64,000 nt of DNA, from the NCBI GenBank assembly GCA_022641095.1, contig JALCDB010000001.1:1-64000 (forward strand), written 5' to 3'. The DNA is from Bacilli bacterium. GTDB lineage: Bacteria; Bacillota_I; Bacilli_A; RFN20; CAG-826. The first letter of the stretch is position 1; every line of letters begins with the position of its first letter. This document shows positions 19,671 through 54,254 of this stretch, piece by piece. The notes beneath the pieces are model-generated. The model was not told where the DNA came from, ran no database searches, and saw only the letters and a list, made by a program, of their open reading frames with translations. Both the position numbers and the translations under genes were made by a program.

Positions 19671-20523
19671 TTTTCTTTTCCTCCCCTCTTTCGAGGAAGA
19701 CCATGATTTCCTCAAGGCTCGCCTGACGGGACACGGCCCCTGGAATCGCCGCGCTGTCCTTCGCCGGCACGACGAACTCGAACTTCCCGCCATGGACGCG
19801 GACGTAACCGAATTTCGAAACGTTCCGATCCTTGAGCAGGCTTTCCTCGCCCGTGAGCATAACGTACTTTTTCTCGAACGAGGAAAGGGACTCGTCGGCG
19901 ATGATTTTCCCTTCCTTGATGTAGATGATGTCGTCGGCGCTTTTCTCAAGATCGCTGATGACATGGGTCGAGAAAAGGATCGTGTGCTCGCCATCGGAGA
20001 CGATTTTCATGAAAATATCCATCAGTTCGTCGCGCGAGACCGGATCGAGCCCGCTCGTCGGCTCGTCCAGAAGCAAAGCCTTGGCCCCGTGCGAAAGGGC
20101 CAGCGCCAAGCCATATTTCACTTTCATGCCGCTCGAGAGTTCCTTTATTTTTTTGTTCTCGTCAAGGCCGAAATCCTTCACGAACGACTCATAAAGCGAC
20201 CGGTTCCACTTGGGGTAGAAAGAAGAGGTTATCGAGGTCATCCTCCGCAAAGTCTTGTTGGGATAATACTCGATGCCGCCAAACAAAAGCCCAATCTCGC
20301 TCTTGGCGAAGGCTTCCGTGTCGCGAATCTCTTTCCCCAGATACTCGATGGATCCGGAATCGGGGCTCACAAGGTTGTAAATGCATTTGAGCGTCGTGGT
20401 TTTCCCAGCCCCGTTCCTCCCGATGAAACCGACGATGTGCCCGGCTTCGAGGGAAAAGGAAACGCCGTCAAGAACGAAACTTGGGTAAGTCTTACGAACG
20501 CTATTCAGCGTAAGGATTCTCAT
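19663..20523 (-). CDS. ABC transporter ATP-binding protein (YtrB/PmtA-like)
   Basis: 286-residue ATPase for the permease downstream. Walker A is GRNGAGKTT, the signature region LSSGMKVKYGLALAL (a variant LSSGM as in this subfamily), Walker B ALLLDEPTSGLD, and H-loop LFSTHVISDLE. The extra 70-residue C-terminal domain is normal for the drug/peptide-export subgroup. AAGGAG stands ten bases before the ATG. Operons of this type usually begin with a GntR regulator; none is readable here. Instead a promoter at 20704-20732 is followed by a 16-codon reading frame and about 120 nt of structured leader. Confidence 0.9.
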   Translation of the reverse strand: MRILTLNSVRKTYPSFVLDGVSFSLEAGHIVGFIGRNGAGKTTTLKCIYNLVSPDSGSIEYLGKEIRDTEAFAKSEIGLLFGGIEYYPNKTLRRMTSITSSFYPKWNRSLYESFVKDFGLDENKKIKELSSGMKVKYGLALALSHGAKALLLDEPTSGLDPVSRDELMDIFMKIVSDGEHTILFSTHVISDLEKSADDIIYIKEGKIIADESLSSFEKKYVMLTGEESLLKDRNVSKFGYVRVHGGKFEFVVPAKDSAAIPGAVSRQASLEEIMVFLERGEEKKNA

Positions 20524-20703
20524 TCTTCCCTAACTCCTTTATAAAGATGCGACGCGAATCTCTCGGCTCTTTCTTGACTAAGACCGCAAGGCCTTTGCGG
20601 CGACCCCCGGGAGCAATGATGGTTCAGCCATCTCCCGCATTGATCGTTTAGGCGAAACGGCGAACTTCCGAGGTTACGTCCATTCGTTTTTTCATACTCG
20701 CTA
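20524..20703 (-). promoter_or_regulatory. Leader of the ABC-2 operon with a 15-aa upstream reading frame and hairpins
   Basis: The start point would be near 20697. An ATG at 20695 opens a 15-residue frame (MKKRMDVTSEVRRFA) ending at 20648. The remaining leader can fold into a hairpin with arms GGGAGATGG and CCAT...CTCCC and into CCGCAA/TTGCGG, before the AAGGAG of the ATPase gene. This is the layout of translational attenuators, but no function is shown. Confidence 0.4.
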
Positions 20704-20732
20704 AGTATAAACATCGCACGAAAAAAGGACAA
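20704..20732 (-). promoter_or_regulatory. Promoter of the ABC-2 operon
   Basis: On the minus strand TTGTCC (20732-20727), a 17-bp spacer and TATACT (20709-20704). Confidence 0.7.
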
Positions 20733-20739
20733 AGCAATT

Positions 20740-21104
20740 TCATAGCGGCGAAAAGCCGCTACGCAAGCGAAACTATAAAAGCCGGGATCGATGGCGCATT
20801 CGCATCGAAACAAGAAAAATCGGTTTTGGTCTTGATGGCTTATGAAAGCAGAAATACCGCCAATAGACAATTTGGCAATTTGGCAAGGGGGGCCATTATC
20901 CATTCGGGCCTAGCCGAAGATCATTGAACGTGACTTTTTGGGATGTCTTGAAGCCGAAGATGCCAGCTACATTGATGCGTGCCTGCCTTTCTAAGTTTCC
21001 GCTTTCCCTAGGAGGCATCCGATGATGGATCTTCTAGCCAAGATTTGATTGATGCCTGCCTTGGCCTATGGCTTTCCGCCAATTGCGAAACCCTTCGCCA
21101 TCGC
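20740..21104. other. Intergenic stretch without a recognisable gene
   Basis: Contains a perfect stem-loop TAGCGGC-GAAAA-GCCGCTA near 20743-20760 and a short tandem repeat of CAATTTGG near 20870. No coding frame is supported. Confidence 0.5.
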
Positions 21105-21644
21105 TCACTTAAGCGGATGGTCTTGGCCTTCCTGCATTTTGTCCTCCATTGGCTTGAGCCCTCGCGCCAACCCCTTGAACACCGCAAATGCCATAAAAAC
21201 AATGTAAGCAAAGAATATTGGAAGGAAAACCACAAAGAAATAGGCGACATTGTTGGAAAAAGTGACGCTATGGTTAGTGACGATCAATTTTCCGGTAAAC
21301 AAAGGCAGCAAGCACATCACCAAAGCCATCAGAAAGAATGGCAAATAAAGAAGGTGGAAATAGATTGTTTTCCTGAAGAAACGGTACTTGTGGACCAAAA
21401 TGGCCATCCGTACGAAACAATACAAATACGCAAGAACCAAGATATCGAAGAAAACCTCAATGATGATCCCATCCAAAGTGACATAGTTATAGCCATAGAA
21501 GGTGGGGGCGATTGGAAGGCATCCGGTGATTAAAAGTATTAATGAATTGTACCTATCAATCCTCTTCTTGGATTTCTTATCCGTGATTGAACTGATTCTT
21601 TCAGAGTCAATTATTTTTTCGTGCAAAGGGGTTTTAGCTTTCAT
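21105..21644 (-). CDS. Four-helix membrane protein of unknown function
   Basis: 179 residues: a charged 30-residue N-terminus, then four hydrophobic segments (about 33-50, 57-82, 95-118 and 132-160) and a short charged tail ending near DKMQEGQDHPLK. The phenylalanine- and tyrosine-rich helices and the lower GC content than its neighbours suggest a lineage-specific or acquired gene. I do not recognise a family. TATACT lies eleven bases before the ATG, and there is no clear ribosome site. It is monocistronic, with no partner on its strand. Confidence 0.65.
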   Translation of the reverse strand: MKAKTPLHEKIIDSERISSITDKKSKKRIDRYNSLILLITGCLPIAPTFYGYNYVTLDGIIIEVFFDILVLAYLYCFVRMAILVHKYRFFRKTIYFHLLYLPFFLMALVMCLLPLFTGKLIVTNHSVTFSNNVAYFFVVFLPIFFAYIVFMAFAVFKGLARGLKPMEDKMQEGQDHPLK

Positions 21645-21695
21645 CGCTATTGGTTAGTATATGCCCTCATCAAGTCGAAAGTGTCGTGCTTTTTT

Positions 21696-21935
21696 CTAGC
21701 CTTCGAAGAATTTATGGTCTAGGAATCCGCAAATGAGCATTGGCGTTAAAGAAAAGATCGCCAGGCACCCTAACGCCCCGACGACTATCTTCAAGACGTA
21801 ACTCAAGCCATAAGCGCTCGCGACCATGATGGCCGAAAAAACCTCACGAACGTCTTCCGCGACCCCGTCAAAAAAGGAACGATCTTCCCGGTCGTTGCCA
21901 ATTTGGTGGCCGAGGCGGCAAAGGCTTTCAAAGCG
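21696..21935 (-). pseudogene. Remnant or small membrane-protein gene
   Basis: An open stretch of 80 codons with an in-frame stop before it and no ATG until 21827. From that ATG it encodes 43 residues, MVASAYGLSYVLKIVVGALG followed by a second hydrophobic half ending in FLDHKFFEG. The upstream part (including FFDGVAEDVREVF) reads like protein sequence but lacks a start. It is most likely the 3' part of a decayed membrane-protein gene, or a 43-aa membrane peptide. The rest of 21645-22154 shows nothing else recognisable. Confidence 0.4.
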
Positions 21936-22154
21936 TTAAAATGACTCGCGAAAGAAACCGGCCGCGTTCATGGACCCAGCCGCACCATAGAGATCCTACC
22001 TATAAACCCATATAGCAAATCCACGGGCAGCAAAAGAAAAGACCGCACTAGACGGTCACTTCTTGGTTTTGCTCGAACTCAAGGAATCCCTTGAGCCCGA
22101 TTGCAACGACGAACTCTGTCCGGTAGACTCCAAGAATTCGCATATACGGCATTT

Positions 22155-22228
22155 TGGCAGGGGCGGAAGGAATCGAACCCTCATCAAAGGTTTTGGAGAC
22201 CTCTGTTCTACCACTGAACCACGCCCCT
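22155..22228 (-). tRNA. tRNA-Trp (anticodon CCA)
   Basis: 74-nt cloverleaf, acceptor AGGGGCG/CGCCCCT, anticodon loop CTCCAAA (CCA), T-arm GAGGG-TTCGATT-CCTTC and an encoded CCA end. Confidence 0.95.
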
Positions 22229-22240
22229 AAAGGCGTGGTA

Positions 22241-22270
22241 ATTATAGACCTCTCGCTATCTTTCTGACAA
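22241..22270 (-). promoter_or_regulatory. Promoter of tRNA-Trp, inside the end of the GatB/YqeY frame
   Basis: On the minus strand TTGTCA (22270-22265), an 18-bp spacer and TATAAT (22246-22241). It overlaps the last codons of the upstream interrupted gene. Confidence 0.65.
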
Positions 22271-22643
22271 GTGACATGTCGACTTGCCCGTCGTAGTGTT
22301 CCTTGAAGTATCTCATGACGGAGGGAAGGGCTTTGTCGGAAAGCCAGGAGTAGATCTTCCTGATCTCCGTTTCCGGAAGCATCTTGGGGAGGAATCCCTC
22401 GATGGCCTTTTTCTAAAGGGCGATGACGGAAGCCTGCTCGGGCCTGCCGGCCGCGGCGTAGCTGTCCCGCTCCTCGTCGAGCTCCTTGAAAAACTTCTGG
22501 ACGATCTTGAGGACATCAAGGTCGGTGACCTCCTTGCCGCTTCCGTTGGTCTTCAGTTCCTGATAACGGGAAATGACGATGCTAAGGCTCGAGCGAGCGG
22601 CCTCGTCATGCGCTTTCATGGCCGTGATGTTGGCCTTAAGCAT
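22242..22643 (-). pseudogene. GatB/YqeY-domain protein interrupted by an in-frame TAG
   Basis: GatB/YqeY proteins share the tail domain of the tRNA amidotransferase subunit GatB and are thought to act around tRNA-dependent amidation. The frame starts at the ATG at 22643 behind a GGAGAG site and reads through 133 codons to the TAA at 22242, except that codon 77 is TAG (22415-22413). Both halves belong to the family: RYQELKTNGSGKEVTDLDVL before it, KKAIEGFLPKMLPETEI directly after it, then the C-terminal SVMRYFKEHYDGQVDMSLV. One base change from GAG, CAG or AAG would restore it. It is either a recent nonsense mutation, a base-call error, or a suppressed codon. Confidence 0.8.
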
Positions 22644-22673
22644 CTTTCTCTCCCCCCCCTAGACAAAAGAAAA

Positions 22674-22721
22674 CCGGAAAAGACAAAGAGAACAGTTTCT
22701 GTCTCATTTGTCTTTTTTCGG
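22674..22721. terminator. Long hairpin between GatB/YqeY and the NERD gene
   Basis: AAAAGACAAAGAGA and TCTCATTTGTCTTTT pair with one bulged base and continue into CCGG/TCGG flanks, with T-rich ends on both strands. It lies downstream of the NERD gene and upstream of GatB/YqeY on the minus strand. Confidence 0.65.
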
Positions 22722-22863
22722 TCTTATATACGCGTGGCTAGACCATCATAACATAAGGAAAGCCCCCGACGTGCGAAGGCATTTTGTTCAGACTCTCGAT
22801 TTTTTTCGAAGAACTATTACGTACTGAAATTTGATCATTCCTCGTCTTTTCGCGGATTAGTAT

Positions 22864-23706
22864 TCACTTTTTCTTGATGAACTTGCACTTCGGGTAGTTT
22901 GAGCAACCATAGAATTCGCGGCCATCTTTCGTGTGACGGAGAACAAGCGCGCTTCCACAACGAGGGCAAATGTTGGCATTGATTTTGTTTTTGGTTTCCC
23001 TTATGCCTTCAGCGTGTTCTTTGTTGGTTTCGATCGGGTTCTCCTTGTAGGTGTTAATCGCTCCAGCGATTCTTTGGATATCGCTTTCTTGGAGAAGATC
23101 GTTCCGACAGCCTTTTAGGTAGCGTTTGAGTTCTCTAGGAGCGAAAACATATTCGCTGTCGATGTATTTGACGTTGCCTTGGGCGAACACCACCACATTG
23201 TTCATGTTGAGTTTCTCATTTGGGAACAAAGAATTGAGCCTTCTTATGTGAGTCGTGTTTTGAAACACCGGTGAATACAACCGGTTCTTGTTATGCCCAT
23301 AAGCGAGCACCTGGGTCCAATTCATGTCTCCATCTTTGCCGTAGATCCTTCCGGAGTAGTTTTTCGTCTCCACCACGAAGATTCCTTTTGAAGACACCAA
23401 AACGTGATCGATTTGCGAGGTTTTGCCGTCATCCCCCGGAACGATTACATCGTTGATAAGAACGTCGTTTTTGTTCATCCCTTTCAAAATATACCTTCTT
23501 ACTTTTCTTTCGCCTTTCCATCCCTTAACGGCTGGCAGATGATTGATGATAAGAAGGGCCATTACCGCGACAACGAGGAGCGAAAAGAAGATAATCCAGC
23601 CTGTCCCCCAATTTTGCCCAATCGCTAACACAAGTAGAATTATCGGCCCAGCAAGAATCACCGTTTCGACTGGGGTTGCTTCGTTTTTTCTTTTTCTTCT
23701 TGCCAT
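22864..23706 (-). CDS. NERD nuclease-related protein with C-terminal topoisomerase-type zinc finger
   Basis: 280 residues. Two hydrophobic segments near the N-terminus (about 15-31 and 36-54) would anchor it in the membrane. The NERD domain follows, with its nuclease-like residues Asp100, Glu113 and Lys115 in QIDHVLVSSKGIFVVETKNY. The last 35 residues are a zf-C4_Topoisom finger (CPRCGSALVLR then FYGCSNYPKCKF) that binds single-stranded DNA in topoisomerase I. Stand-alone NERD proteins are suspected in DNA processing or defence. It is monocistronic, with no ribosome site stronger than AATCATT-type sequence before the ATG. The family is sure; the role is not. Confidence 0.88.
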   Translation of the reverse strand: MARRKRKNEATPVETVILAGPIILLVLAIGQNWGTGWIIFFSLLVVAVMALLIINHLPAVKGWKGERKVRRYILKGMNKNDVLINDVIVPGDDGKTSQIDHVLVSSKGIFVVETKNYSGRIYGKDGDMNWTQVLAYGHNKNRLYSPVFQNTTHIRRLNSLFPNEKLNMNNVVVFAQGNVKYIDSEYVFAPRELKRYLKGCRNDLLQESDIQRIAGAINTYKENPIETNKEHAEGIRETKNKINANICPRCGSALVLRHTKDGREFYGCSNYPKCKFIKKK

Positions 23707-24217
23707 AATGATTATCGACAGGAATAAAAGTTACACTTCAAGCAGAAAACTACATATGAAGGCTTATATTAAGGATGGGAACCAAGGGTTACGTCCACCC
23801 CGTTCTTGGTGAGTTCTTGGGCTAGGAAATATAGGGTTGCACATCATCTCTAGTGCCCATTGTGAACATTGCTGCTTTTTTGTCTTGCCTCCTGACTTGC
23901 ACCGCTTCTAGGATCGTTTGGACTTCCGGTCTGTATAGCACAGAATGCTTGTTTTCCCGATGAGATCATAATTGCCAAAATGGAAAAATAAACTTCGAAT
24001 AAACATTGGTAGCGAAAAAGAATGAAGTCGATCAGAAAACTTTCAGAGGAAACGATAAACATCGAGAAGCTTCGAATGGTGACAGAGAAAACAAACGAAG
24101 GAAAAAGCCAAGACATCGTAAACGGTCATAGCCGGCAAAGCAATGAACTGATGGGTAACTGTTTTCACCAGAAGGATTTTTAATGCCGTTGGCAAACGGA
24201 AGCAGGATAATAGTTGC
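23707..24217. other. Intergenic stretch upstream of the RiPP cluster, no supported gene
   Basis: Short frames exist on both strands but lack ribosome sites and protein-like composition. GATAAT at 24206-24211 ends six bases before the regulator ATG and is its likely -10 box. Confidence 0.5.
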
Positions 24218-25240
24218 ATGAGGATCGGGGAATTCTCAAAACTCACAGAGCTTAGCGAATCCACCATTCGTTATTACATAAACCATGGACTTTTGGGACC
24301 AACAAAAAGAAATGGGCAATACTCTTTTGACGACCGGGACCTAAAAACGGCTAAGACGATAAACGAATTAAAGGAATTGGGATTTTCTTTAGAAGATATT
24401 TCAAAATTCCTTCTTTCGATGTTACTTACAAGCAAATTCAAGAATGCTTTAGCTAAAGAACAAAAAGGAATGTTGAAAAGACGAATTCATGAGATTCACG
24501 ATGAGCAAAAATCTCTTCGGTTAAAGGAAAAAAAGCTGAAGGCCATTATTTCTTCGCAAGACGATGATATTTCTCGTTTGGATTGCGGTTTTTCTTTAAA
24601 GGCCATTCCTTTTCTGCGATGCCCCTTCTGTGGAAGTAAACTCCTTTTAAGGGACGGGACCATAGAAGAAGACTGCCTTCGAAGCGCTTCACTTCATTGT
24701 GAAAAATGTAGTGATTCCTGGAACATTTCTGATGGTATCTTGTATCCAAATTGTTTTTCAAAAGAGTTCATACAAGCCAAAGATCGTCCGATAAACACCG
24801 ATTTCGGTGATTGGGGATCGAAAAAAGAAGCCGAAGTCGAAAAACGCTTGATCGCTTACCAACGTGCTTTTTCCGAAGCGTTGGAGAAATTTTCCACCAC
24901 CTCCCCAAAGGTTTTTCTAATCTCCGACATAGATAATTCTGTCCTTTTACTAAGCTCCTTTGAACAGTTACCTCGGGATTGCTTGATTTTCGTTCAAGGA
25001 GGGATGGATCTACCTTCTATCAGAAAAGTGTGTTCGGATTTTCGTGGCCATCAAGTGGCCTTCATTTTTTCCGATTCTCGATGCCTTCCACTGAAAGCAG
25101 CTTGCCTCGATGGCGCCTCTTGGATCTCAAACGGGGATCTTCCGACCCCTTTCTTCTCGTCTCTAACAAAAGATGATTCCGTCCTCTTTGAAACCATCGT
25201 GAGAGAAGACAACGAAATCGAGTTAAAGCAAAGCAAATAA
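24218..25240 (+). CDS. MerR-type regulator with zinc ribbon and methyltransferase-like tail
   Basis: 340 residues. Residues 1-70 are a MerR winged helix (MRIGEFSKLTELSESTIRYY), followed by a Lys/Glu-rich dimer helix (about 75-112). A zinc ribbon then has CPFCG (Cys135, Cys138) and CEKC (Cys161, Cys164), next to SWNISDGILYP, which resembles the Trm112-like start of some methyltransferases. The last 150 residues look like a reduced Rossmann/methyltransferase fold without a clear SAM loop, so a sensor role is more likely than catalysis. It directly precedes the RiPP precursor, maturase and exporter and is probably their regulator. It appears leaderless (GATAAT six bases before the ATG). Confidence 0.75.
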   Translation: MRIGEFSKLTELSESTIRYYINHGLLGPTKRNGQYSFDDRDLKTAKTINELKELGFSLEDISKFLLSMLLTSKFKNALAKEQKGMLKRRIHEIHDEQKSLRLKEKKLKAIISSQDDDISRLDCGFSLKAIPFLRCPFCGSKLLLRDGTIEEDCLRSASLHCEKCSDSWNISDGILYPNCFSKEFIQAKDRPINTDFGDWGSKKEAEVEKRLIAYQRAFSEALEKFSTTSPKVFLISDIDNSVLLLSSFEQLPRDCLIFVQGGMDLPSIRKVCSDFRGHQVAFIFSDSRCLPLKAACLDGASWISNGDLPTPFFSSLTKDDSVLFETIVREDNEIELKQSK

Positions 25241-25260
25241 CCTAAACCTAGGTTTAGGTT
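25239..25260. terminator. 22-bp perfect palindrome after the regulator gene
   Basis: The palindrome includes the last two bases of the regulator stop codon and reads CCTAAACC at its centre-left and GGTTTAGG at its centre-right around CTAG. It is followed by TTCTTC. It is probably a terminator, or alternatively an operator for the divergently read signal upstream of the precursor. Confidence 0.6.
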
Positions 25261-25287
25261 TTCTTCAGAATCCATCGTTAATGGTGC

Positions 25288-25318
25288 TTGACCTCATCTT
25301 TGGTATTGGTTTTATGAT
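25288..25318 (+). promoter_or_regulatory. Promoter of the RiPP operon with 19-bp spacer (MerR-type)
   Basis: TTGACC (25288-25293), a 19-bp spacer and TATGAT (25313-25318) lie 23 bp before the precursor start codon. MerR regulators act on promoters with 19-20-bp spacers by untwisting them; a MerR gene ends 48 bp upstream. The dyad inside the spacer is weak (only ACC and GGT at its edges). Confidence 0.6.
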
Positions 25319-25340
25319 GCCGACAAAGGAGGTAAAACCC

Positions 25341-25445
25341 GTGGAAATAGTTGTCGAAGGATACGACGGCCTCTTCACCGAAAGCATTAACATCATTGCT
25401 TGCCAGAAGAAGTGCGTGCTCAATTACCTTGGGTGCGGGAGCTGA
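25341..25445 (+). CDS. RiPP precursor peptide, 34 aa, three cysteines
   Basis: Short frame starting with GTG eight bases after a perfect AAAGGAGG and ending at the TGA at 25443-25445, six bases before the radical SAM gene. The first 19 residues are an acidic, hydrophobic leader (MEIVVEGYDGLFTESINII). The tail is ACQKKCVLNYLGCGS, with Cys21, Cys25 and Cys32 (CX3CX6C) and a C-terminal Gly-Ser. Position, strong ribosome site and cysteine-rich tail identify it as the substrate of the adjacent maturase. Sactipeptide- or ranthipeptide-type thioether bonds at the cysteines are the obvious expectation. I recognise no named precursor family. No GG or C39 cleavage motif is present. Confidence 0.8.
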   Translation: MEIVVEGYDGLFTESINIIACQKKCVLNYLGCGS

Positions 25446-25451
25446 TAACGT

Positions 25452-26684
25452 ATGGAGTTTGCCAAATATTCTTTAATATTCAAATCCACCAAAAACGGAT
25501 GTCTTTTAATCAATACGATGACAAACTCCGTCGTTAGATTTGACCAAGAGCATTCTCTCAGGTTGGCCAATGCCATAAATGGATCAAAAGACGAAGAAAT
25601 AGAAGGGTTTTTGCGCTCTCACCATTTCCTGAGAGACCACACTTTCGAGAACGCCTTCCTTTTGGACAAGGAACGCGCCTTGTTCCATGGAAAGGATTTA
25701 TTAGACGTTTGCATATTCACTAGTTTGCGTTGCAATTTAAGGTGTCCGTATTGCTACGAACGTCACGATGGGCCGACAACGGGGGATGATACGTACATCA
25801 GGCTTGAGAGAAAAATCAAAGAGCTGTCTCCGCAAATCCTTTTTATTTCTTGGTTCGGGGGAGAACCGTTGTTGAATAAGGAGAGGGTCCTTTCTTTCTC
25901 TTCGGAAATGAAGGAGTATCAAAATTCCTGTTCGCACATCTTCAAATCAGGCATTACCACGAATGGCACCTTATTGGACGGACCTACCTCGCGTAGCCTT
26001 GTCGATTGCGGCGTGACTTCGTTCCAAGTGACCGTTGACGGGCCAAAGGAAATGAATGACATTAGTCGGCTCCGGCCCGATGGTGGTGGCACATTCGACA
26101 TAATCATGAGAAACCTTCTAACATTACATAAGATCCCAGAACCGTTTACCATGATCGTAAGATGCAACGTCAGCGATCAGGCCGTAATAGATCCGTTTTG
26201 CGATGTTTTCAATGACAACTTTGGAAACGATAAACGGTTTTCGCTCCTTTTTTACCCAGTTAGTGATTGGAAAAATCTCGGAAAATCATGCATGGCAAAA
26301 AGTTTAAACATTTTTTCGTTAAATGAGCCAGTATTACGAAAGGGCTTGCATTCAGCCTTGATGGATTCCGTTAATACGGAAGGTTTCTTTTGCCAATTTG
26401 GGCATCCAGGCAAATTCGTCGTTTATCCCGATGGCAGCATAGGCGATTGCACGATAAAGATGATGGGGGAGGGAAAAATCGAAGATTGCCTATCCGAAGA
26501 TCCAGAAGCCAGAAAAAATTGCCCCGATGACGATTGTTTGCTATATCCGAAATGCTTTGGCCAACAATGCAGGAACGCTGAGAGGGGCGAAAAGATCTGT
26601 GAGGCAATGCGACAAGGCGTTATAGGTTTTTACCAATGCTATGCAGAGGAACTGCTTCATGAAAAAGTATCTTTATTGGTCTAA
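25452..26684 (+). CDS. Radical SAM/SPASM peptide maturase
   Basis: 410-residue enzyme predicted to modify the 34-aa peptide encoded just before it. Residues 1-80 are a small N-terminal domain of the type that often binds leader peptides. The radical SAM core has the iron-sulfur motif CNLRCPYC (Cys94, Cys98, Cys101), the SAM-binding WFGGEPL (134-140) and ITTNGTLL. The C-terminal SPASM region has nine cysteines (314, 333, 346, 357, 361, 368, 373, 383, 396) that would hold two auxiliary clusters, as in thioether-forming maturases. GGGAG inside the end of the precursor gene serves as its ribosome site, and its last 26 bp overlap the exporter gene. Confidence 0.92.
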   Translation: MEFAKYSLIFKSTKNGCLLINTMTNSVVRFDQEHSLRLANAINGSKDEEIEGFLRSHHFLRDHTFENAFLLDKERALFHGKDLLDVCIFTSLRCNLRCPYCYERHDGPTTGDDTYIRLERKIKELSPQILFISWFGGEPLLNKERVLSFSSEMKEYQNSCSHIFKSGITTNGTLLDGPTSRSLVDCGVTSFQVTVDGPKEMNDISRLRPDGGGTFDIIMRNLLTLHKIPEPFTMIVRCNVSDQAVIDPFCDVFNDNFGNDKRFSLLFYPVSDWKNLGKSCMAKSLNIFSLNEPVLRKGLHSALMDSVNTEGFFCQFGHPGKFVVYPDGSIGDCTIKMMGEGKIEDCLSEDPEARKNCPDDDCLLYPKCFGQQCRNAERGEKICEAMRQGVIGFYQCYAEELLHEKVSLLV

Positions 26685-28257
26685 GGGATTCTATTTCCTT
26701 CTCCTTTTTCTCGCTTTTCTTGACGCCGTTCTCGAAGCGGGGATTGCTTTGGTCATTGAATACCTAGTTAACAACATTTCCTCCGACTCTTTTGACATAA
26801 CCACCTTCATAGGTTATGGGGCGGCGGCGCTTGGCTATGCGGTGATAATGATCACGTGTTTTTTTGGATATAACTCTTACGTGGCTTGGTACCTCAACAA
26901 GGCAGTCAAACGGCTTAGCGACGATGTTTTTTCCTCCTTGATGGAGAAAAACACGGCCTCATTTCAGGAAAACAATGTTTCCTCTTATCTGTCCGTTCTC
27001 ATGAACGATTGCACCCGTGTCGCCAATCAATATCTAGGCCCAATGCTTTCCCTCCCTGGTTTTATACTGACTTATTTGGCTGCGCTTGCCATGTCCCTTT
27101 ACATTAATTGGGCCATCGCACTTTTCTTGTTGGCCTTTTCTTTCTTGGTGTTTCTTGTCCCGTATTTTTTTAACAAGCCAATGAATCTTCGTAACGAGGA
27201 AATCCAGAAAGCCTTTTCCAATCTTTCAAGCCAATACCAGAATTTCCTTCAGGGCCACGACGTCGTGAGGAGCCTTTCCGCATACGATTATGTTTTTGAA
27301 AAGGAAAGCCGCTCGTCGATGAAAGCCTATCGCGCGGCCTTTAGGCAATCCCGCCTTTCCTTGGGCGTGTCATCCTTAAGCAGTTTGTTGACAACGGTTC
27401 TTCAAATCTCGGTCATTGTGGGGTCAGGAATTATCGCCTCCCAGGGAGGACTGGCTTTCGGTGCCGTTCTTGCTTTCATCCAACTCGCGAACAACCTCTA
27501 TAATCCATTGAGCAGTTTCGCCACTTCTGTATCTTCAATAAAGGGGATGTCATCGGTAAACGCAAGCCTTCTCACATTAACAACGCAAGAGTTCTCTAAG
27601 AAGGATAAAATCGAACTGGATGGTCGCCTTTCTGTTCAAGATCTCAGCTTTTCCTACGGGGAAAAAGAAATCATTTCCCATTTTTCTTATTCATTCGAAC
27701 CGGGTAAAAAATACCTCATAGAAGGAGAAAGCGGTAGCGGAAAGAGTACCTTGCTCCGCCTTCTTTCTGATAGTGGTGAGCCTTATGTCGGAACTATTGA
27801 AGCGAGCGGACACGATTACCGCGATCTCAGTTTCAAAACGGTGGCATCCGCGGTTTATTACTGTGAGCAAACTTCAAGAATTTTCCCAGGCACTCTGAAG
27901 GAGAACGTTCTTTTTGGTTCCCCGTATGACGACGGCAAATTCACTAAGGCAATTCGTTTGGCTGGATTGGTCGATTTCGTTAAGGAAAGAGGGACGGATA
28001 CGCTTCTTGACCCCGAGTTAAACTCCAGCAGTGGCGGCGAGACTCAAAGAATAGCGCTCGCAAGGGCTATATACCATGAACCAAAGATTTTGCTTCTAGA
28101 CGAGATCACATCTGGCTTAGATGAAATGACGAATCGCAGCATCCAAGAAAGCATATTGGGACTACCCATGACAATCGTCTTCGTTTGCCACAATGTGCTT
28201 CCGTCATTGCCAAAGCAATTCGATGGTACCTTGGAAATGAGAAAATGCAACGACTGA
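26659..28257 (+). CDS. ABC exporter, fused membrane and ATP-binding domains
   Basis: 532-residue half-transporter likely to export the mature peptide. Six membrane helices fill residues 1-300. The ATPase domain has Walker A GESGSGKST, signature SSGGETQRIALARAI and Walker B ILLLDEITSGLDE. There is no N-terminal C39 peptidase, so leader removal must be done by another protease, or the product keeps its leader. I place the start at the ATG at 26659 (MKKYLYWSKGFYFLLL), eight bases after AGAGGA; an ATG 18 bases upstream lacks a site. It overlaps the maturase gene by 26 bp, so the two are coupled. Self-immunity may be by export. Confidence 0.92.
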   Translation: MKKYLYWSKGFYFLLLFLAFLDAVLEAGIALVIEYLVNNISSDSFDITTFIGYGAAALGYAVIMITCFFGYNSYVAWYLNKAVKRLSDDVFSSLMEKNTASFQENNVSSYLSVLMNDCTRVANQYLGPMLSLPGFILTYLAALAMSLYINWAIALFLLAFSFLVFLVPYFFNKPMNLRNEEIQKAFSNLSSQYQNFLQGHDVVRSLSAYDYVFEKESRSSMKAYRAAFRQSRLSLGVSSLSSLLTTVLQISVIVGSGIIASQGGLAFGAVLAFIQLANNLYNPLSSFATSVSSIKGMSSVNASLLTLTTQEFSKKDKIELDGRLSVQDLSFSYGEKEIISHFSYSFEPGKKYLIEGESGSGKSTLLRLLSDSGEPYVGTIEASGHDYRDLSFKTVASAVYYCEQTSRIFPGTLKENVLFGSPYDDGKFTKAIRLAGLVDFVKERGTDTLLDPELNSSSGGETQRIALARAIYHEPKILLLDEITSGLDEMTNRSIQESILGLPMTIVFVCHNVLPSLPKQFDGTLEMRKCND

Positions 28258-28464
28258 GAAAGCCTTTTGTTGTTTCTCTTTTCTCCTTCTGACTTCTTTC
28301 GCTCTTTCCTTTATCGATTCCCTGTATTGTTCTGATGTCGTATTGTCATAGGAACGAACAACCATGTAAATCTTGTCGATTGATTGAATCCAATCTTTAA
28401 ATCCATCGAATCCATCTCGAAAAACAAAGCATCTCACACAACCACCCCATGACATACATTTCAT
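28204..28464 (-). CDS. Short hypothetical frame beside the RiPP cluster (doubtful)
   Basis: 86 codons, of which the last 18 are antisense to the exporter end. The product begins MKCMSWGGCVRCFVFRDGF and continues with an acidic, then a basic helical stretch (ESIKERAKEVRRRKEKQQKA). There is no ribosome site before the ATG. The N-terminal part is protein-like, and it sits between the cluster and a repeat-bearing element, so it may be a remnant of a mobile element gene. I recognise no family and give it low weight. Confidence 0.25.
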   Translation of the reverse strand: MKCMSWGGCVRCFVFRDGFDGFKDWIQSIDKIYMVVRSYDNTTSEQYRESIKERAKEVRRRKEKQQKAFSVVAFSHFQGTIELLWQ

Positions 28465-28488
28465 AGAAATGATGGATTATCAACTTCT

Positions 28489-28544
28489 AATTCGTCACCT
28501 TTGACGTTAATTCGTCCACTCTGACTCGAACTCGTCACCATTGA
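28489..28544 (+). repeat. Three tandem 16-bp repeats at exact 20-bp spacing
   Basis: AATTCGTCACCTTTGA (28489), AATTCGTCCACTCTGA (28509) and AACTCGTCACCATTGA (28529) are similar copies with a strict 20-bp period. Such multiple terminal repeats are typical of transposase-binding ends of IS21/Tn7-like elements. Confidence 0.6.
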
Positions 28545-28700
28545 TCTGAAAAGGTCAAGAAATTTATGAAAGGGAAAACCCTTTTTTTGATACACACTTT
28601 TTAGCGTTTTTGCTTGTTTTTTTATTAAAAAAGCTGTTTTTTGACAAAATAAAAACCGCTTCGTGGGTGCGAAACGGCCATATTTCGATTTTGGCTTTAG

Positions 28701-45679: not shown

Positions 45680-45982
45680 TCAACGCTTTTTTGTCTTTGT
45701 TTTTACTAAGTTTCCTTCGCTATCAAACTCACTTTCTTTTTGAAAGCGATTATGCTCTTCGTTGTGGCATTCCTTACAAAGCAAGATGAGGTTGTCTTGG
45801 TTGAGAGAAATGTTTGGATCAAGAACATTCATCGGTGTGAGTTTAATCTTGTGATGAACTTCTTGACCCACCCTACCACATTTCTCGCACCTTCCATTAG
45901 CGAGTAGGATTCTTTCAAGTCTTGCTTTCTGCCAAGCATCGCTACGATAGAACCGCTCGATAATATCAGGATTGCTCTTCAT
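45680..45982 (-). CDS. HNH endonuclease
   Basis: 100 residues. The HNH motif reads VGQEVHHKIKLTPMNV, then NLILLCKECHNEEHNRF, with zinc-binding CEKCG and CKEC pairs. Phage HNH proteins next to terminases nick DNA during packaging and are needed for terminase activity. Its start overlaps the end of metK by 17 bp, so it is translated from the same mRNA. Confidence 0.93.
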   Translation of the reverse strand: MKSNPDIIERFYRSDAWQKARLERILLANGRCEKCGRVGQEVHHKIKLTPMNVLDPNISLNQDNLILLCKECHNEEHNRFQKESEFDSEGNLVKTKTKKR

Positions 45983-47090
45983 CCTTTAAAGCCTTGATTA
46001 AAGCATCACGCTTGTCCGTATGTTCCCAGGGAACATCAATATCAGACCTACCAATATGGCCATAGGATGCGAGTTTTTGGTATTTGACTTCTTTTAGTTT
46101 TAATTCCTTGAGAATGTTTAAAGGTGTGAAGTCGAACACCTTATTTATGCAAGCAAGGATTCTCTCCTCGCTAACACTTGAAGTATTGAAAGTATCTACG
46201 GATAAGGACACTGGTTCAGCGATTCCAATCGCATAAGCCACGCCCACTTCACAACGCTTGGCGATTCCAGCTGCTACGATGTTCTTGGCGACATACCTTG
46301 AATAGTAAGCAGCACTTCTATCGACCTTGCTTGGATCCTTTCCAGAAAACGCTCCACCACCATGATGGGCAACCCCACCATAGGTATCGACAATAATCTT
46401 TCTTCCAGTGAGTCCGCTATCGGCAAACGAACCACCTTTGACGAACTCGCCAGTTGGATTGATTAAGATTTGCGTTTCTTTTGAAAGAATCTCGTGAGGG
46501 ATAACTTTATAAAGGCATTCATTAATAATGATTCCAATATAGGTTTCTCGAGATACTTCCTTTTTGGTTTGTGCAGAAACCACTATCGCCTTAATTGATA
46601 CTGGTTTATTCTCTTCGTAGTTTACGGAAACTTGACACTTGCCATCACTTCCAAACGCCCACTGATACTTGCCACTGCTCAACTCGTCCATCTTGATGGA
46701 TATCTTTCGAGCAAGGACAAGACTCAAAGGCATGAGTTCTGGAGTTTCATCACTTGCGTAGCCAAACATCAGTCCTTGGTCGCCAGCTCCGTTTTTATCA
46801 ACTCCGAGTGCGATGTCTTTGCTTTGCGTGGAGATTTTCTCAATCACGCAGTATCTTCCTTTGTAGGCGGCATTCTTTAGAACATCCTTTGCCACTTTGG
46901 AATAGTTAACCTTCGCCTTGGTGGTAATTTCGCCACCGACAACGAGAAAGTCATCTTTGATAAAGCATTCCACTGCCACTCTTGAGTTAGCGTCTTCTTT
47001 CAAACACGCATCTAATATAGCATCGCTAATTTGGTCACACACTTTGTCTGGGTGACCTTTGAACACGGATTCGCTTGTTACAATTTTCAT
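45966..47090 (-). CDS. metK: S-adenosylmethionine synthetase (phage-borne)
   Basis: 374-residue enzyme that makes SAM from methionine and ATP. All family motifs are present: SVFKGHPDKVCDQISDAILD at the start, GAGDQGLMFGYA, GGSFADSGLTGRKIIVDTYG, and VAHHGGGAFSGKDPSKVDRS. The length is normal for the short bacterial form. AGGAG stands six bases before the ATG, after a terminator-like hairpin at 47108-47125. It is embedded between phage genes on the same strand, so it is a viral copy, presumably feeding the element's methyltransferases. It is not a host housekeeping locus by context. Confidence 0.95.
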   Translation of the reverse strand: MKIVTSESVFKGHPDKVCDQISDAILDACLKEDANSRVAVECFIKDDFLVVGGEITTKAKVNYSKVAKDVLKNAAYKGRYCVIEKISTQSKDIALGVDKNGAGDQGLMFGYASDETPELMPLSLVLARKISIKMDELSSGKYQWAFGSDGKCQVSVNYEENKPVSIKAIVVSAQTKKEVSRETYIGIIINECLYKVIPHEILSKETQILINPTGEFVKGGSFADSGLTGRKIIVDTYGGVAHHGGGAFSGKDPSKVDRSAAYYSRYVAKNIVAAGIAKRCEVGVAYAIGIAEPVSLSVDTFNTSSVSEERILACINKVFDFTPLNILKELKLKEVKYQKLASYGHIGRSDIDVPWEHTDKRDALIKALKDEEQS

Positions 47091-49165: not shown

Positions 49166-50398
49166 CTAGATACCTTCGATGTTTTTTAATAGGTCTGGAG
49201 TGGTCTCTAAGGTGAGAGGAATCTTCTCTCCACCACGAAGTAAAAAGCACCCCTCAAGAGTGCCTTTGAATTTGATATATCTACGGACAATGACATCGAC
49301 ATACTTCTCATCGATTTCCATGAGGAGCGATTCTCTTTGAAGTTGCTCACTGGCGATGAGGGTTGAACCACTGCCACCGAACAAGTCGAGCACCACTTGG
49401 TGCATTCTACTTGAGTTAGAGATGGCTTTGCCAACAAGCTCGAGAGGTTTCATCGTTGGATGCAAATCATTATTCTTTGGTTTGTTATATTCCCACACGG
49501 TGTCTTGGGTTCGATCATCAACGAAGTAATGTGCCGCTCCCTCTTTCCAACCATAAAGAATTGGTTCATGTCGCCAATGGTAATCTTGTCTTCCAAGGAC
49601 TAGAGCATTTTTCACCCAAACCAAGCATTCCGCCAGTTTGAAACCAGCTTGTTTGAATGCGTTTCTAAAGTTCAGACCTTCGGTATCGGCATGACACACA
49701 TAGATTGAACCACCCAATTTAATATGATCATAAAGGTTATCAAAGGCACTAACGAGGAAGTTAAAGAACGACTCATCTTCCATATTATCGTTTTGAATCG
49801 TCCCAGCTGTACCTTCGTAGTTCACATTGTATGGCGGATCAGTAAAAATCATATCGGCTAATCGATTATCGCATAAGATATCGACATCTTCCTTTTTAGT
49901 GGAATCGCCACACATAACACGGTGTTTTCCAAGCAAATAGATATCGCCTATTTGGCTCGTTGGTGTTTCTGGAAGTTCCTCATCTTCGTTGAAATCATCG
50001 TCTTGAGCTTCGCCAGTCAACTCTTTTTCAAGGTCTTCTAGGTTGAAACTGAATAACTCCATATTAATGGATTCGATTTTCTTCAATTCCTCGAGCAATT
50101 CCTCTTCGTTCCAATCGGAAAGTTCAGCGGTCTTGTTATCAGCCAAGCGAAAGGCATTCACTTGTTCTTCGGTTAGATCATCGGCAATGATACAAGGTAC
50201 AACCTTAAGTCCGAGTTTCAAAGCAGCCTTCAAGCGTGTGTGTCCTGCGACTATCACGTAATCCTTATCAATGATAATAGGGTTCTTGAATCCGAACTCC
50301 TTTATCGACTCAGCAACGGCATCCACCGCCTTATCGTTATCACGAGGGTTATTTTCATAGGGAATCAGTTTCTCGACTGCAATATCACTAATCTTCAT
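49166..50398 (-). CDS. ParB-domain DNA N6-adenine methyltransferase
   Basis: 410 residues from the ATG at 50398. Residues 1-110 are a ParB/Srx-type domain (IPYENNPRDNDKAVDAVAES, then VIVAGHTRLKAALKLG). The methyltransferase part has MIFTDPPYNVNYEG (motif IV, DPPY) before VLDLFGGSGSTLIASEQ (motif I), the beta-class order. Such ParB-MTases are common in Bacillota prophages and protect phage DNA from host restriction. A weak AAGAA precedes the ATG, which overlaps the upstream gene by 11 bp. Confidence 0.92.
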   Translation of the reverse strand: MKISDIAVEKLIPYENNPRDNDKAVDAVAESIKEFGFKNPIIIDKDYVIVAGHTRLKAALKLGLKVVPCIIADDLTEEQVNAFRLADNKTAELSDWNEEELLEELKKIESINMELFSFNLEDLEKELTGEAQDDDFNEDEELPETPTSQIGDIYLLGKHRVMCGDSTKKEDVDILCDNRLADMIFTDPPYNVNYEGTAGTIQNDNMEDESFFNFLVSAFDNLYDHIKLGGSIYVCHADTEGLNFRNAFKQAGFKLAECLVWVKNALVLGRQDYHWRHEPILYGWKEGAAHYFVDDRTQDTVWEYNKPKNNDLHPTMKPLELVGKAISNSSRMHQVVLDLFGGSGSTLIASEQLQRESLLMEIDEKYVDVIVRRYIKFKGTLEGCFLLRGGEKIPLTLETTPDLLKNIEGI

Positions 50399-50849
50399 AT
50401 TTCTTAAAGTCGTCTCCTTTCGCCATTTCAATGCGTTTGAGTTGGATGTCTATCTCTTCTCTTCTAGGGTTCAAACCCTTATCAAAGTTCTGGAACCAGT
50501 ATTTTTGTGCGTCTAGGCTTGGTGCGATTGGCTCTTTGATTTTCTTTAAAGTGGTCTTTCCATTGGAATCCTTTAACACCACGTTGCGATCAATTTCATA
50601 ACCATAGGCAACTTGATAAAGTCTAACGTTAAGTTTTACAGCTGCGAGATTGACTTCGTTCAAAGCCAAAACCACATCACGATGCTTTTTCTTCATCGCA
50701 GTCAGGGTTCGAAGGTCGATGTTTAGCAATTTTGCGATATTGCAATCAAAACAACCTTGGCTTGAATACTCCTTCATCAATGCTAACTTCTGGTCAAGCA
50801 CACCATCGGCTTTCCACTTGGCATAAGTGTCTTGTTCTTTTTTTCTCAT
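50388..50849 (-). CDS. Helix-turn-helix phage protein, small-terminase-like
   Basis: 153 residues from the ATG at 50849 (MRKKEQDTYAKWKADGVLDQ), seven bases after AGGAG. A helix-turn-helix is readable in CFDCNIAKLLNIDLRTLTAM, followed by VRLYQVAYGYEIDRNVVLKD, a sequence order seen in small terminase-like packaging proteins. The true P27-type small terminase lies at 43115, so this may be a second DNA-binding packaging factor or a methyltransferase partner. It is the first gene of the minus-strand late block as far as seen. Confidence 0.65.
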   Translation of the reverse strand: MRKKEQDTYAKWKADGVLDQKLALMKEYSSQGCFDCNIAKLLNIDLRTLTAMKKKHRDVVLALNEVNLAAVKLNVRLYQVAYGYEIDRNVVLKDSNGKTTLKKIKEPIAPSLDAQKYWFQNFDKGLNPRREEIDIQLKRIEMAKGDDFKKYED

Positions 50850-51277: not shown

Positions 51278-51427
51278 ATGGAAAAAACAAAGCAGCTTAT
51301 TATTCGTGTGTCACCAGAAGTTAAAAAAGAACTTAAGTTGTATGCAGTTGAAAACGATAAAAGTATGAATGACATCGTTCTTTCTTTTTTGATAGATGGA
51401 TTAAGGAAGGCTGGAAAGAATGTCTAA
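51278..51427 (+). CDS. Ribbon-helix-helix protein (Arc/MetJ type), 49 aa
   Basis: Too short for usual cut-offs but convincing: GGGAG seven bases before the ATG, and a sequence with the RHH plan, a strand KQLIIRVSPEVKKELKLYA, then a helix and SMNDIVLSFLIDGLRKAG. It would bind DNA as a dimer through the N-terminal strand. It overlaps the start of the cytosine methyltransferase gene by 8 bp and is the first gene of the operon, so it is probably its autoregulator, using the inverted repeat in the promoter spacer at 51228-51242. Confidence 0.82.
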   Translation: MEKTKQLIIRVSPEVKKELKLYAVENDKSMNDIVLSFLIDGLRKAGKNV

Positions 51428-52685
51428 ATTTACTTTTATAGATCTATTCGCTGGAATAGGTGGTTTTCATCAAGCAATGAAGTCTTTAGGTGGAAAATGC
51501 GTTTTTGTTTGTGAAAATGATGAACAGTGTGTTGAAACATACAAGAAGAATTATGATATCAAAGAAATATATGGAAATATCAGAAATATCAATCCAATAA
51601 AGGATGTTCCAAACTTTGATTGCCTTTGTGCAGGATTCCCTTGCCAATCGTTCAGCAAAGCAGGTTTGAGAAAGGGGTTCAAAGACGAGCAAAGAGGCGA
51701 CTTATTCGATTACATCATTAAAATATTAAAAGACCATCAAGAGGCTAAATTCATTATTTTAGAAAATGTTAGAAATTTAGCTGATGACGAGGATAACTGG
51801 AAGCATATTAAAGAAGAATTGATGAAGTTGAATTTTTTTATTACTGAAGAACCAATAATTCTTTCTCCATCTGATTTTGGTATTCCTCAAGTTAGAGAAC
51901 GTGTTTATATTCTTGGAATAAGAAAAGATTTACGTGATATAGCAAAACTTAAAAACGGATATATTCATATTTCAGATTTGCATTTAGAAAAGCAAATGAA
52001 GAAATGTGGTAGTAAGGCTGCGTTGTCTATCTTAGATAATAAAAAAGGAAATATATCCACTCTTACTGATGAACAAGTTGAAATGCTTGGAGCTTGGGAA
52101 GAATTTAGAAATCAATGCCTAGCTGAGTCAATAGGATCCCCTGTATGGCTTCACTATTTTGGCACGGACTTTGAAGATGATAAATCTTTCTATCGTAGTT
52201 GTGGATTTTATAAAAACAAAAAGAATCGAACTCCAGAATGGAAGCAAAGATTTATCACAAGGAATCGTGAGTTATACAAGAAAAATAAAGAATGGATTGA
52301 TGAATGGATAGTCCGCTATGACATGAAGAATAGGAGTAGGATTTATCAAAAATTCGAATGGAATTGCCGTGGAAAATGCGAAACCATGCATGATGGAATA
52401 ATTCAGTTCCGTCAATCTGGTATAAGGGTGAAAGCACCAAATTCGTTCCCTTCACTTGTTGCAATGGTAAATACCCCCATTATTTGGGATACTGAAATAG
52501 AAGAATTTCGATATATTACAGTTGAAGAAGCTGCCAAATTGCAAAGTTTCAATGCAAATTTCGACTTTGGAGAAAGTAAGCATACAGCATATAAACAACT
52601 TGGAAATTCCGTTAATGTTAAAGTGTTGAAAATTCTAGGAAAAGCATTAACAAACTTATTAGTCGAAGATTGGGAGGAAAAATAG
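51420..52685 (+). CDS. DNA cytosine-5 methyltransferase
   Basis: 421 residues, all C5-methyltransferase motifs in order: FIDLFAGIGGFHQAM (motif I), GFPCQSFSKAGLRKG (motif IV with catalytic Cys), FIILENVRNL (VI), IPQVRERVYILG (VIII), a target-recognition region of about 150 residues, and QLGNSVNVKVLKIL (X). It is the modification part of the operon and presumably protects sites that the ATPase-nuclease genes downstream restrict. It overlaps the RHH gene and abuts the GHKL gene (stop TAG directly before ATG). AT-rich codon use unlike the host. Confidence 0.95.
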   Translation: MSKFTFIDLFAGIGGFHQAMKSLGGKCVFVCENDEQCVETYKKNYDIKEIYGNIRNINPIKDVPNFDCLCAGFPCQSFSKAGLRKGFKDEQRGDLFDYIIKILKDHQEAKFIILENVRNLADDEDNWKHIKEELMKLNFFITEEPIILSPSDFGIPQVRERVYILGIRKDLRDIAKLKNGYIHISDLHLEKQMKKCGSKAALSILDNKKGNISTLTDEQVEMLGAWEEFRNQCLAESIGSPVWLHYFGTDFEDDKSFYRSCGFYKNKKNRTPEWKQRFITRNRELYKKNKEWIDEWIVRYDMKNRSRIYQKFEWNCRGKCETMHDGIIQFRQSGIRVKAPNSFPSLVAMVNTPIIWDTEIEEFRYITVEEAAKLQSFNANFDFGESKHTAYKQLGNSVNVKVLKILGKALTNLLVEDWEEK

Positions 52686-54254
52686 ATGGGACAAAAAATT
52701 AATATTCGCCCTACCACTGGCGTTTATGCAACATATAAAAACCTGAGATACGAACCTTGGACTGCTTTGGCAGAATTTGTAGATAACTCAACGCAAAGTT
52801 TCTTCGATCATAAAAGTACATTGCTAACTCTTCCAACATTCAAAAAACTAATTATTAACATTGAATATGAACAAAACGATTCAGGTGACATTGTAAGAAT
52901 AACCGATAACGCATTTGGAATGGAGAGTTCAGACTTTGAAAGAGCAATCCAACTAGATAAGCCACCACTTGTAAAAAGTGGAAGAAATGAATTCGGTATG
53001 GGTCTAAAAACAGCTGCGTGTTGGTTTGGCACATTATGGACTGTCAAATCTACACAACTTGGATCTGAAATTGGCTATAAAGCCACTATGGACATTAACC
53101 AGTTAGCAATCAGCAAAGAAGACTTAATCGATCTTGATATTTATGAAACTAAAAAAGATGAGCACTACACCATCATCGAAATTAGAAACCTTAATAAAAA
53201 AATAACTGGCTCCAGAACTATTGGGAAGGTCAAAGATTTTTTAAGCAGTATATATCGTGAAGACTTACGAAGAGGCGATGTTGAAATTGTTTTTAAAGGT
53301 CAAACGCTAAATTTTGAAAACCCTGAAGTCTATTGCGAAACACTATCAAACGGAAACACCGTCGAATGGAAAAAAGATGTTTCTTTTAGTGTAAATAGAA
53401 ATGGACAATATTACGATGTCACTGGCTTTATTGCATTAAGAGCTAGAGGTAGCAGACGTGATGCAGGCTTTACCCTAATTCGTCGAGGACGTGTAATAGT
53501 TGGAGGCCCTGAGTCTAATTATCGACCAGAAGAATTATTTGGCGATGCTGGTACATATACCTATCAACGTCTATTTGGCGAACTTCATATGGATAATTGG
53601 CCAGTTACGCAAGCAAAAGACAACTTCGATTGGCACACCGATGGTCTTGAAGAAGAGTTTATCGCCAAAATGCTCCCATTTACAAAAGACTATCGAGTTA
53701 AAGCTGAAGATATCCGTTTCCGTGCAACCAAGAAAGTTCCTGACACTCTAAAAGAAGCTGGGGACATTCTAGAAAAGGGTGGATTGATTTCAAATGTTAA
53801 AATTGAAATACCACAAGAAGAAGTCAAAACTAATGATTCAACGCCAAAAAGCGAAGAGCCTAAAATTGATGATACATATACAAAGCAAGAAACTGACCAA
53901 GATACGAGTGTAATTATCGAAGGTCCTAGAAGCGGAACTTTCTCATTTACTTATAAAGGTTCTGATTACTCTTTTTTAGTCCAATATGACATTACAAATC
54001 CAAGTAATCCATGGTTGATTGTTACACAAAAGGATGCAAAAAATTATTCGCTTATACTAAATATGAAGCATAAATTCTTTTTTCCATTCCTTGAAAATGG
54101 CGATTTCATGAATCTAATCACCGAGTTTGTCATTTCAATGGTTTTGTCTGAAATTGAAGCTTCATCCTATTACCCTGATGGTCGCATAGATATTGGCGAT
54201 GTTAGAACCATCATGAATACATTATTAGAAAAAATGGCCGAGGCTAAAAAATGA
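52686..54254 (+). CDS. MORC-like GHKL ATPase
   Basis: 522 residues. The GHKL ATP-binding motifs are clear: N-box ALAEFVDNSTQSF (Glu30, Asn34), G1 ITDNAFGMES (Asp74), and G2 SGRNEFGMGLKTAACWFG. A transducer-like domain follows, with RRDAGFTLIRRGRVIVGG, and a C-terminal region of about 190 residues. This is the bacterial relative of eukaryotic MORC and of MutL-type clamps. In predicted restriction systems such ATPases occur with a Z1 helicase, a REase and a methyltransferase, precisely the neighbours here. Its ATG directly follows the methyltransferase stop. Confidence 0.9.
   Translation: MGQKINIRPTTGVYATYKNLRYEPWTALAEFVDNSTQSFFDHKSTLLTLPTFKKLIINIEYEQNDSGDIVRITDNAFGMESSDFERAIQLDKPPLVKSGRNEFGMGLKTAACWFGTLWTVKSTQLGSEIGYKATMDINQLAISKEDLIDLDIYETKKDEHYTIIEIRNLNKKITGSRTIGKVKDFLSSIYREDLRRGDVEIVFKGQTLNFENPEVYCETLSNGNTVEWKKDVSFSVNRNGQYYDVTGFIALRARGSRRDAGFTLIRRGRVIVGGPESNYRPEELFGDAGTYTYQRLFGELHMDNWPVTQAKDNFDWHTDGLEEEFIAKMLPFTKDYRVKAEDIRFRATKKVPDTLKEAGDILEKGGLISNVKIEIPQEEVKTNDSTPKSEEPKIDDTYTKQETDQDTSVIIEGPRSGTFSFTYKGSDYSFLVQYDITNPSNPWLIVTQKDAKNYSLILNMKHKFFFPFLENGDFMNLITEFVISMVLSEIEASSYYPDGRIDIGDVRTIMNTLLEKMAEAKK

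Follow-up and report, generated by a model that had tools for sequence, protein, structure and literature searches.

A small orphan precursor-maturase pair in a putative peptide-modifying gene cluster of uncultured anaerobic Bacilli

Positions 1 to 64,000 of contig JALCDB010000001.1 from a Bacilli bacterium (hereafter, the window) contain a compact cluster of four plus-strand genes, which encode a MerR-family regulator, a 34-residue peptide with cysteines at positions 21, 25 and 32, a radical S-adenosylmethionine (SAM)/SPASM maturase and an ATP-binding cassette (ABC) exporter (Table 1). The gap between the precursor and maturase genes is 6 bp, and the maturase and exporter genes overlap by 26 bp. 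A first-pass annotation of the same DNA had given the four genes, the span of the cluster and both distances exactly to the base. It had also proposed a compact cluster of the kind that makes ribosomally synthesized and post-translationally modified peptides (RiPPs), which agrees with the position of a short precursor beside a modifying enzyme and with the recurrence of this pair in a second genome, G137.

Table 1. Features of the cluster and its surroundings in the window.
Feature	Position	Strand	Basis
MerR-family regulator, 340 aa	24218..25240	+	sequence and domain search
Precursor peptide, 34 aa, GTG start, MEIVVEGYDGLFTESINIIACQKKCVLNYLGCGS	25341..25445 (GTG 25341, TGA 25445)	+	sequence; counterpart in G137
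Radical SAM/SPASM peptide maturase, 410 aa	25452..26684	+	Radical_SAM domain, motifs, alignment, predicted fold
ABC exporter, 532 aa counted from ATG 26659	26659..28257	+	domain search
Shine-Dalgarno sequence AAAGGAGG of the precursor	25325..25332	+	sequence; similar context in G137
Promoter-like TTGACC-19 bp-TATGAT	25288..25318	+	sequence; layout common to three loci
Perfect palindrome ACCTAAACCTAGGTTTAGGT with trailing T's, just 3' of the regulator stop	25240..25262	+	sequence
Mismatch-free block shared with genome G024, whole cluster inside	20204..28695		alignment to contig JALCSW010000003

The maturase belongs to the radical SAM superfamily, its Radical_SAM Pfam match scoring 61.5 bits against a cut-off of 29.5 (E = 1.5e-16). 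Both the CX3CX2C motif (C94-X3-C98-X2-C101) and the nine cysteines past residue 300 that the first-pass annotation had noted are present, and seven of the nine (314, 333, 357, 362, 368, 373 and 383) are invariant in this enzyme and the three relatives aligned with it. These seven are the SPASM cysteines: when compared with the pattern CX9-15GX4C - CX2CX5CX3C - C, the first part is found as C314-X13-G328-X4-C333 and the second in a slightly relaxed form, spaced CX4CX5CX4C. Neither the window maturase nor that of G137 reaches the cut-off of any curated NCBIfam maturase family. The former scores 112 bits with CefB (NF038107, cut-off 600), its best NCBIfam match, 97.9 with TIGR04463 (525), 94 with the geopeptide maturase model (400), 88.8 with the Clo7bot maturase model (600) and 79.4 with PapB (NF047865, 340), all five of them models of maturases of cysteine-rich peptides. 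Its scores with the SCIFF maturase model (TIGR03974) and the sactisynthase model RumMC are 51.8 (425) and 37.7 bits (720), respectively. Against the TIGR04463, geopeptide and Clo7bot models the G137 maturase scores alike, below the cut-offs. A fold search with an AlphaFold2 model of the window maturase (mean predicted local distance difference test (pLDDT) score 65) retrieved CteB (5why, E = 3e-13) as the best match, with SuiB second and SkfB lower. Residues 7-56 are predicted to form elements in the order beta-beta-beta-alpha-alpha (pLDDT about 57-76), and the N-terminus (residues 1-60) is accordingly modelled as a putative domain resembling the RiPP recognition element (RRE).

Relatives of the maturase were searched for in about 100 related genomes and in samples of the order (279 genomes), class (395) and phylum (392). 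Beyond the identical copy in genome G024, only G137, which represents another genus of the same family, encodes a close relative at full length (35% identical across residues 5-400; E = 2e-70). Plasmids and phages yielded only distant matches (<60% identity), none of those in phages covering 80%. In a phylogenetic tree that includes plasmid, viral-contig and genomic relatives, the window and G137 maturases are sisters with 99/98 support. Directly upstream of the G137 maturase lies a peptide, MEILQVQYTDESLLNIKCVQNIICGVDAKYCHLE, which has 34 residues, three cysteines (spaced CX5C, then CX6C) and an MEI start; its ATG stands at the equivalent position behind the Shine-Dalgarno context AAAGGAGGTGAAACCC, nearly as in the window. 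A short precursor is thus conserved beside its modifying enzyme in the window and in G137, and the alignment score of the two peptides is reached by 99 of 5000 shuffles. The first-pass annotation had singled out two weak points of its reading, a maturase falling into a known family and a 34-codon frame not conserved in related clusters; in fact the enzyme joins no family at the curated cut-offs, and the frame is kept in the related cluster. The conserved unit consists of the peptide and the maturase only, because in G137 no MerR gene adjoins the cluster and two ABC half-transporters stand where the window cluster has a single exporter. Two other loci were observed in genomes of the same taxonomic class. 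In G487 (L012:1462-3305) the gene order is unusual, an acyl-carrier-like protein and a peptide ending CWTGGCYSGGCYTKSCKK coming after a CefB-like maturase. In G367 (L011:2596-2691) a short peptide, MEVISNGNPTSVGVVVPVNILCGSNCGK, with an ME start led by AGGAGG, lies just upstream of a related maturase.

The precursor was rightly called unfamiliar: it has no NCBIfam match even at E = 10, the G137 peptide likewise matches no NCBIfam model, and tblastn searches of plasmids with both peptides gave zero matches. Across both strands of the 64 kb, only three distinct Shine-Dalgarno-led frames 25-60 codons long carry three or more cysteines. An earlier in-frame ATG at 25281, taken as the start in the list of open reading frames (ORFs), gives a frame of 54 residues; it was dropped since it precedes the promoter-like site and, in G137, any extension falls out of frame. 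The GTG is favoured because of the promoter-like site and the conserved Shine-Dalgarno context, from which it is well spaced.

MerR-activated promoters typically have a 19-bp spacer. The promoter-like site between the regulator and precursor genes is weak by its score alone, which is reached by 9 of 300 shuffles at 19-20 bp spacing. An equivalent layout is found upstream of the G137 precursor and of a paralogous remnant of the cluster (described below), and the site appears more convincing as a feature common to three loci than on its own. The palindrome behind the regulator gene may be a weak terminator or an operator; at the equivalent spot the paralogous locus has AAACCAAGGTTT plus a T run.

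The regulator starts with a helix-turn-helix (residues 1-65) that places it in the MerR family (MerR_1, 65.3 bits against 21.6, E = 5e-18), continues with a helical linker and a Trm112-like Cys4 zinc ribbon (C135/C138/C161/C164), and ends in a short domain that aligns with the methyltransferase-like C-terminal domain of related MerR proteins. Judging by this alignment, the C-terminus would be a degenerate methyltransferase-like domain, without a GxGxG-type SAM motif, and may have a sensing role. A single-sequence structure model of the regulator (pLDDT 44.6) was set aside. The same domain order is found in MerR proteins of Vescimonas fastidiosa (26% identity over 307 residues) and Acetoanaerobium noterae, the latter encoded just upstream of a major facilitator superfamily (MFS)-type gene. 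The Acetoanaerobium protein keeps a SAM motif, ELGTGVG, whereas the window regulator does not, and unlike both of these longer proteins the window regulator sits in a RiPP operon. No relatives of the regulator were found in viral contigs, and our literature search found no paper tying MerR regulators to clusters of this sort, nor anything relevant under the names of the protein-family models. In the exporter, the membrane and ATPase domains are fused in one protein, in which a domain search found no peptidase domain.

A second, paralogous locus is present both in the window's own genome (G000:C6) and in G024 (G024:C1). Its regulator and exporter are 38% and 53% identical to those of the window cluster, and the maturase is reduced to its last 49 codons; the precursor and the remainder of the maturase are gone at the same junction in both genomes. 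This loss happened before the two species diverged. Between the species the remnant exporter differs by 22 nonsynonymous and 43 synonymous changes (ratio of nonsynonymous to synonymous rates, dN/dS, 0.14), and dN/dS is 0.28 for the regulator and about 1.1 for the maturase remnant, the last on only 6 changes. The exporter and regulator have been under purifying selection since the species split. Such selection at a locus that has lost the precursor and most of the maturase suggests that regulated export has a use even where the peptide is not made, the simplest one being protection from it. The G000 copy of the remnant exporter (L016:3009-4574) is frameshifted in an A run near the C-terminus. 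The frameshift could reflect decay or an error in sequencing, and in G024 the gene is whole (537 aa).

The whole window cluster is contained in an 8.5-kb block that is 100% identical in G024, the metagenome-assembled genome (MAG) UW_MP_BACIL6_1, whereas the flank at 14.2-20.2 kb is on average about 91-93% identical per kilobase. This MAG comes from milk-permeate fermenting bioreactors, is labelled RFN20, CAG-826, UBA4951 and has a GC content of 54.5% (PMC9302107). Such a contrast in identity indicates that the block was recently exchanged between two species, and G024, as the carrier of an identical recent copy, was rejected as independent evidence of conservation. With a GC content of 41-46%, the window cluster stands below its chromosome (53-54%), and the G137 maturase (39%) likewise falls short of 54-56%; horizontal acquisition seems likely for both clusters. 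The two genomes diverge at 28695, with a prophage following in the window and, in G024, a serine recombinase and a mobilisation-type gene (named by eye). We rejected the cluster as prophage cargo: the shared block stops where these elements begin, and the cluster is on its chromosomal side. Since G024 has a different element at exactly this position, the site looks like an integration hotspot; no convincing attachment-site repeat was found in the window.

Also inside the exchanged block, at 22867-23706, is a gene for a NERD-like protein with a topoisomerase-type zinc finger (by eye), which among 37 genomes of the genus occurs only in the two cluster-bearing ones. The prophage-like region (28696-64000, GC 37%) begins 438 bp past the exporter stop and has terminase, portal, capsid, tail and holin-like genes (by eye). 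It encodes an S-adenosylmethionine synthetase-like protein (45966-47090) and DNA methyltransferase-like genes (49166-50431, 51420-52685, 59946-61040 and 62771-63997). Its plus-strand genes at 51420-57368, cytosine methyltransferase-like, GHKL ATPase-like, Z1-like and nuclease-like, look by eye like a restriction-type defence cassette.

Taken as a whole, these observations are probably best explained by a small orphan RiPP pathway with a cysteine thioether product, more likely of the ranthipeptide kind. We infer that the MerR-type protein switches on transcription from the promoter immediately before the peptide gene and that the precursor comprises a leader (about residues 1-19) and a core (about 20-34) with the three cysteines. 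The precursor N-terminus would be bound by the RRE-like N-terminus of the maturase, as the predicted fold suggests. A 5'-deoxyadenosyl radical would then take a hydrogen from an acceptor residue, and at least one cysteine sulphur would join that carbon as a thioether, more likely of the ranthipeptide (non-alpha) kind. The lean towards ranthipeptide chemistry comes from the nearest fold, CteB, which forms a Cys-Thr S-Cgamma thioether (PMC11002830). The ABC exporter would secrete the product and may shield the producer, and the leader would either stay on or be cut by a protease encoded elsewhere. For these anaerobic Bacilli, the likeliest product is a peptide that acts as a narrow-spectrum antibacterial or as a signal.

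Several points weigh against this pathway or its details. There are only two independent precursor sequences, which can be aligned in two ways, CX6C on CX6C or along a common CVxN...CG stretch. Once the MEI start is left out, their similarity loses significance (553 of 5000 shuffles), so conservation rests on position, length, start, Shine-Dalgarno context and number of cysteines, not on the core. The SPASM part of the predicted maturase model is of low confidence. Of the first-pass annotation's "complete pathway", the compact cluster stands but completeness does not: within the window cluster there is neither a leader protease nor a dedicated immunity gene, and the regulator and this type of exporter are not fixed parts, given the different make-up of the G137 cluster. 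Finally, a thioether is the likeliest outcome and not the sole one, as SPASM enzymes also yield C-C, C-O and epimerised products.

The same chemical diversity of the SPASM family (PMC8326336) is an argument for a product with a C-C or C-O crosslink or an epimerised residue, in which the cysteines serve as metal ligands or form disulphides. Tyr8 is common to both precursors, each of which has another tyrosine near its last cysteine. Yet the closest models and the nearest fold are maturases of cysteine-rich peptides, not cyclophane enzymes, and both precursors have three cysteines, so we consider such a product unlikely. A sactipeptide, in which alpha-carbon thioethers fold the short core into a hairpin, would account equally for a short cysteine-rich precursor adjoining a SPASM enzyme, and the window peptide has one CX3C, a spacing known from sactipeptides; nevertheless, this spacing is missing from the G137 peptide, the RumMC score is far under its cut-off and SkfB comes behind CteB and SuiB in the fold search, which makes the sactipeptide improbable as well.

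Whatever its chemistry, the peptide could be not a toxin but a signal or inducer to which the regulator responds. SCIFF-derived ranthipeptides reportedly take part in quorum sensing of clostridia, to go by the title of Chen et al. 2020 (cited in PMC8326336), and the regulator gene adjoins the peptide gene. But the G137 cluster lacks the regulator, a related MerR protein adjoins an MFS efflux gene, and regulator and exporter persist at the paralogous locus where the peptide is gone, which fits protection better; a signalling role is conceivable though rather doubtful. A chance origin of the 34-codon frame, with some other substrate for the enzyme, is largely refuted and very improbable: short frames are common, three distinct Shine-Dalgarno-led cysteine-rich ones occurring in the window, but length, position, Shine-Dalgarno context, start motif and number of cysteines recur in G137.

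The preferred reading, a thioether-forming orphan RiPP pathway, concerns a very small enzyme-substrate pair outside all curated maturase families, from uncultured anaerobic Bacilli of the order RFN20, genus UBA4951 (GTDB label of the partner MAG). With one small precursor and one enzyme, it is a good system for new radical SAM crosslink chemistry, and the contrast between the full cluster and the regulator-exporter remnant in one genome bears on the exporter as an immunity factor. A bolder version, to which we give limited credence, would make the window and G137 pairs a new RiPP subfamily with an undescribed crosslink pattern (donor-acceptor pair or ring topology), with a MerR regulator whose inactive methyltransferase-like domain was turned into a sensor and an exporter that persists elsewhere as stand-alone immunity.

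As far as sequence comparison goes, the pair is a small orphan subfamily, a new precursor type within a known kind of peptide biosynthesis. The NxxC system of Streptococcus (NxxcA/NxxcB), compared by precursor motif and context, also has a short precursor, and the G137 peptide contains N21-I-I-C24; the window precursor has N28-Y-L-G-C32 (NX3C), so that the spacing differs between the two, and no Rgg/SHP quorum-sensing pair is seen. Freyrasin PapA/PapB represents a ranthipeptide maturase family, but the window precursor is without the CX3D motif. The window maturase matches CefB of the CefA/CefB (Cys-every-fifth) system from residue 1, whereas the CefA-type CX4C repeat is missing from the window precursor and present in the peptide beside the G487 relative (CWTGGCYSGGCYTKSC). 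Closest by solved structure, in both sequence and fold, is CteB of the CteB/SCIFF ranthipeptides (thermocellin), where likewise a radical SAM/SPASM maturase, with an N-terminal RRE-like domain that the window enzyme may share, lies beside a short cysteine-rich peptide; SCIFF precursors, however, have six cysteines in about 45 residues, and the window precursor three in 34.

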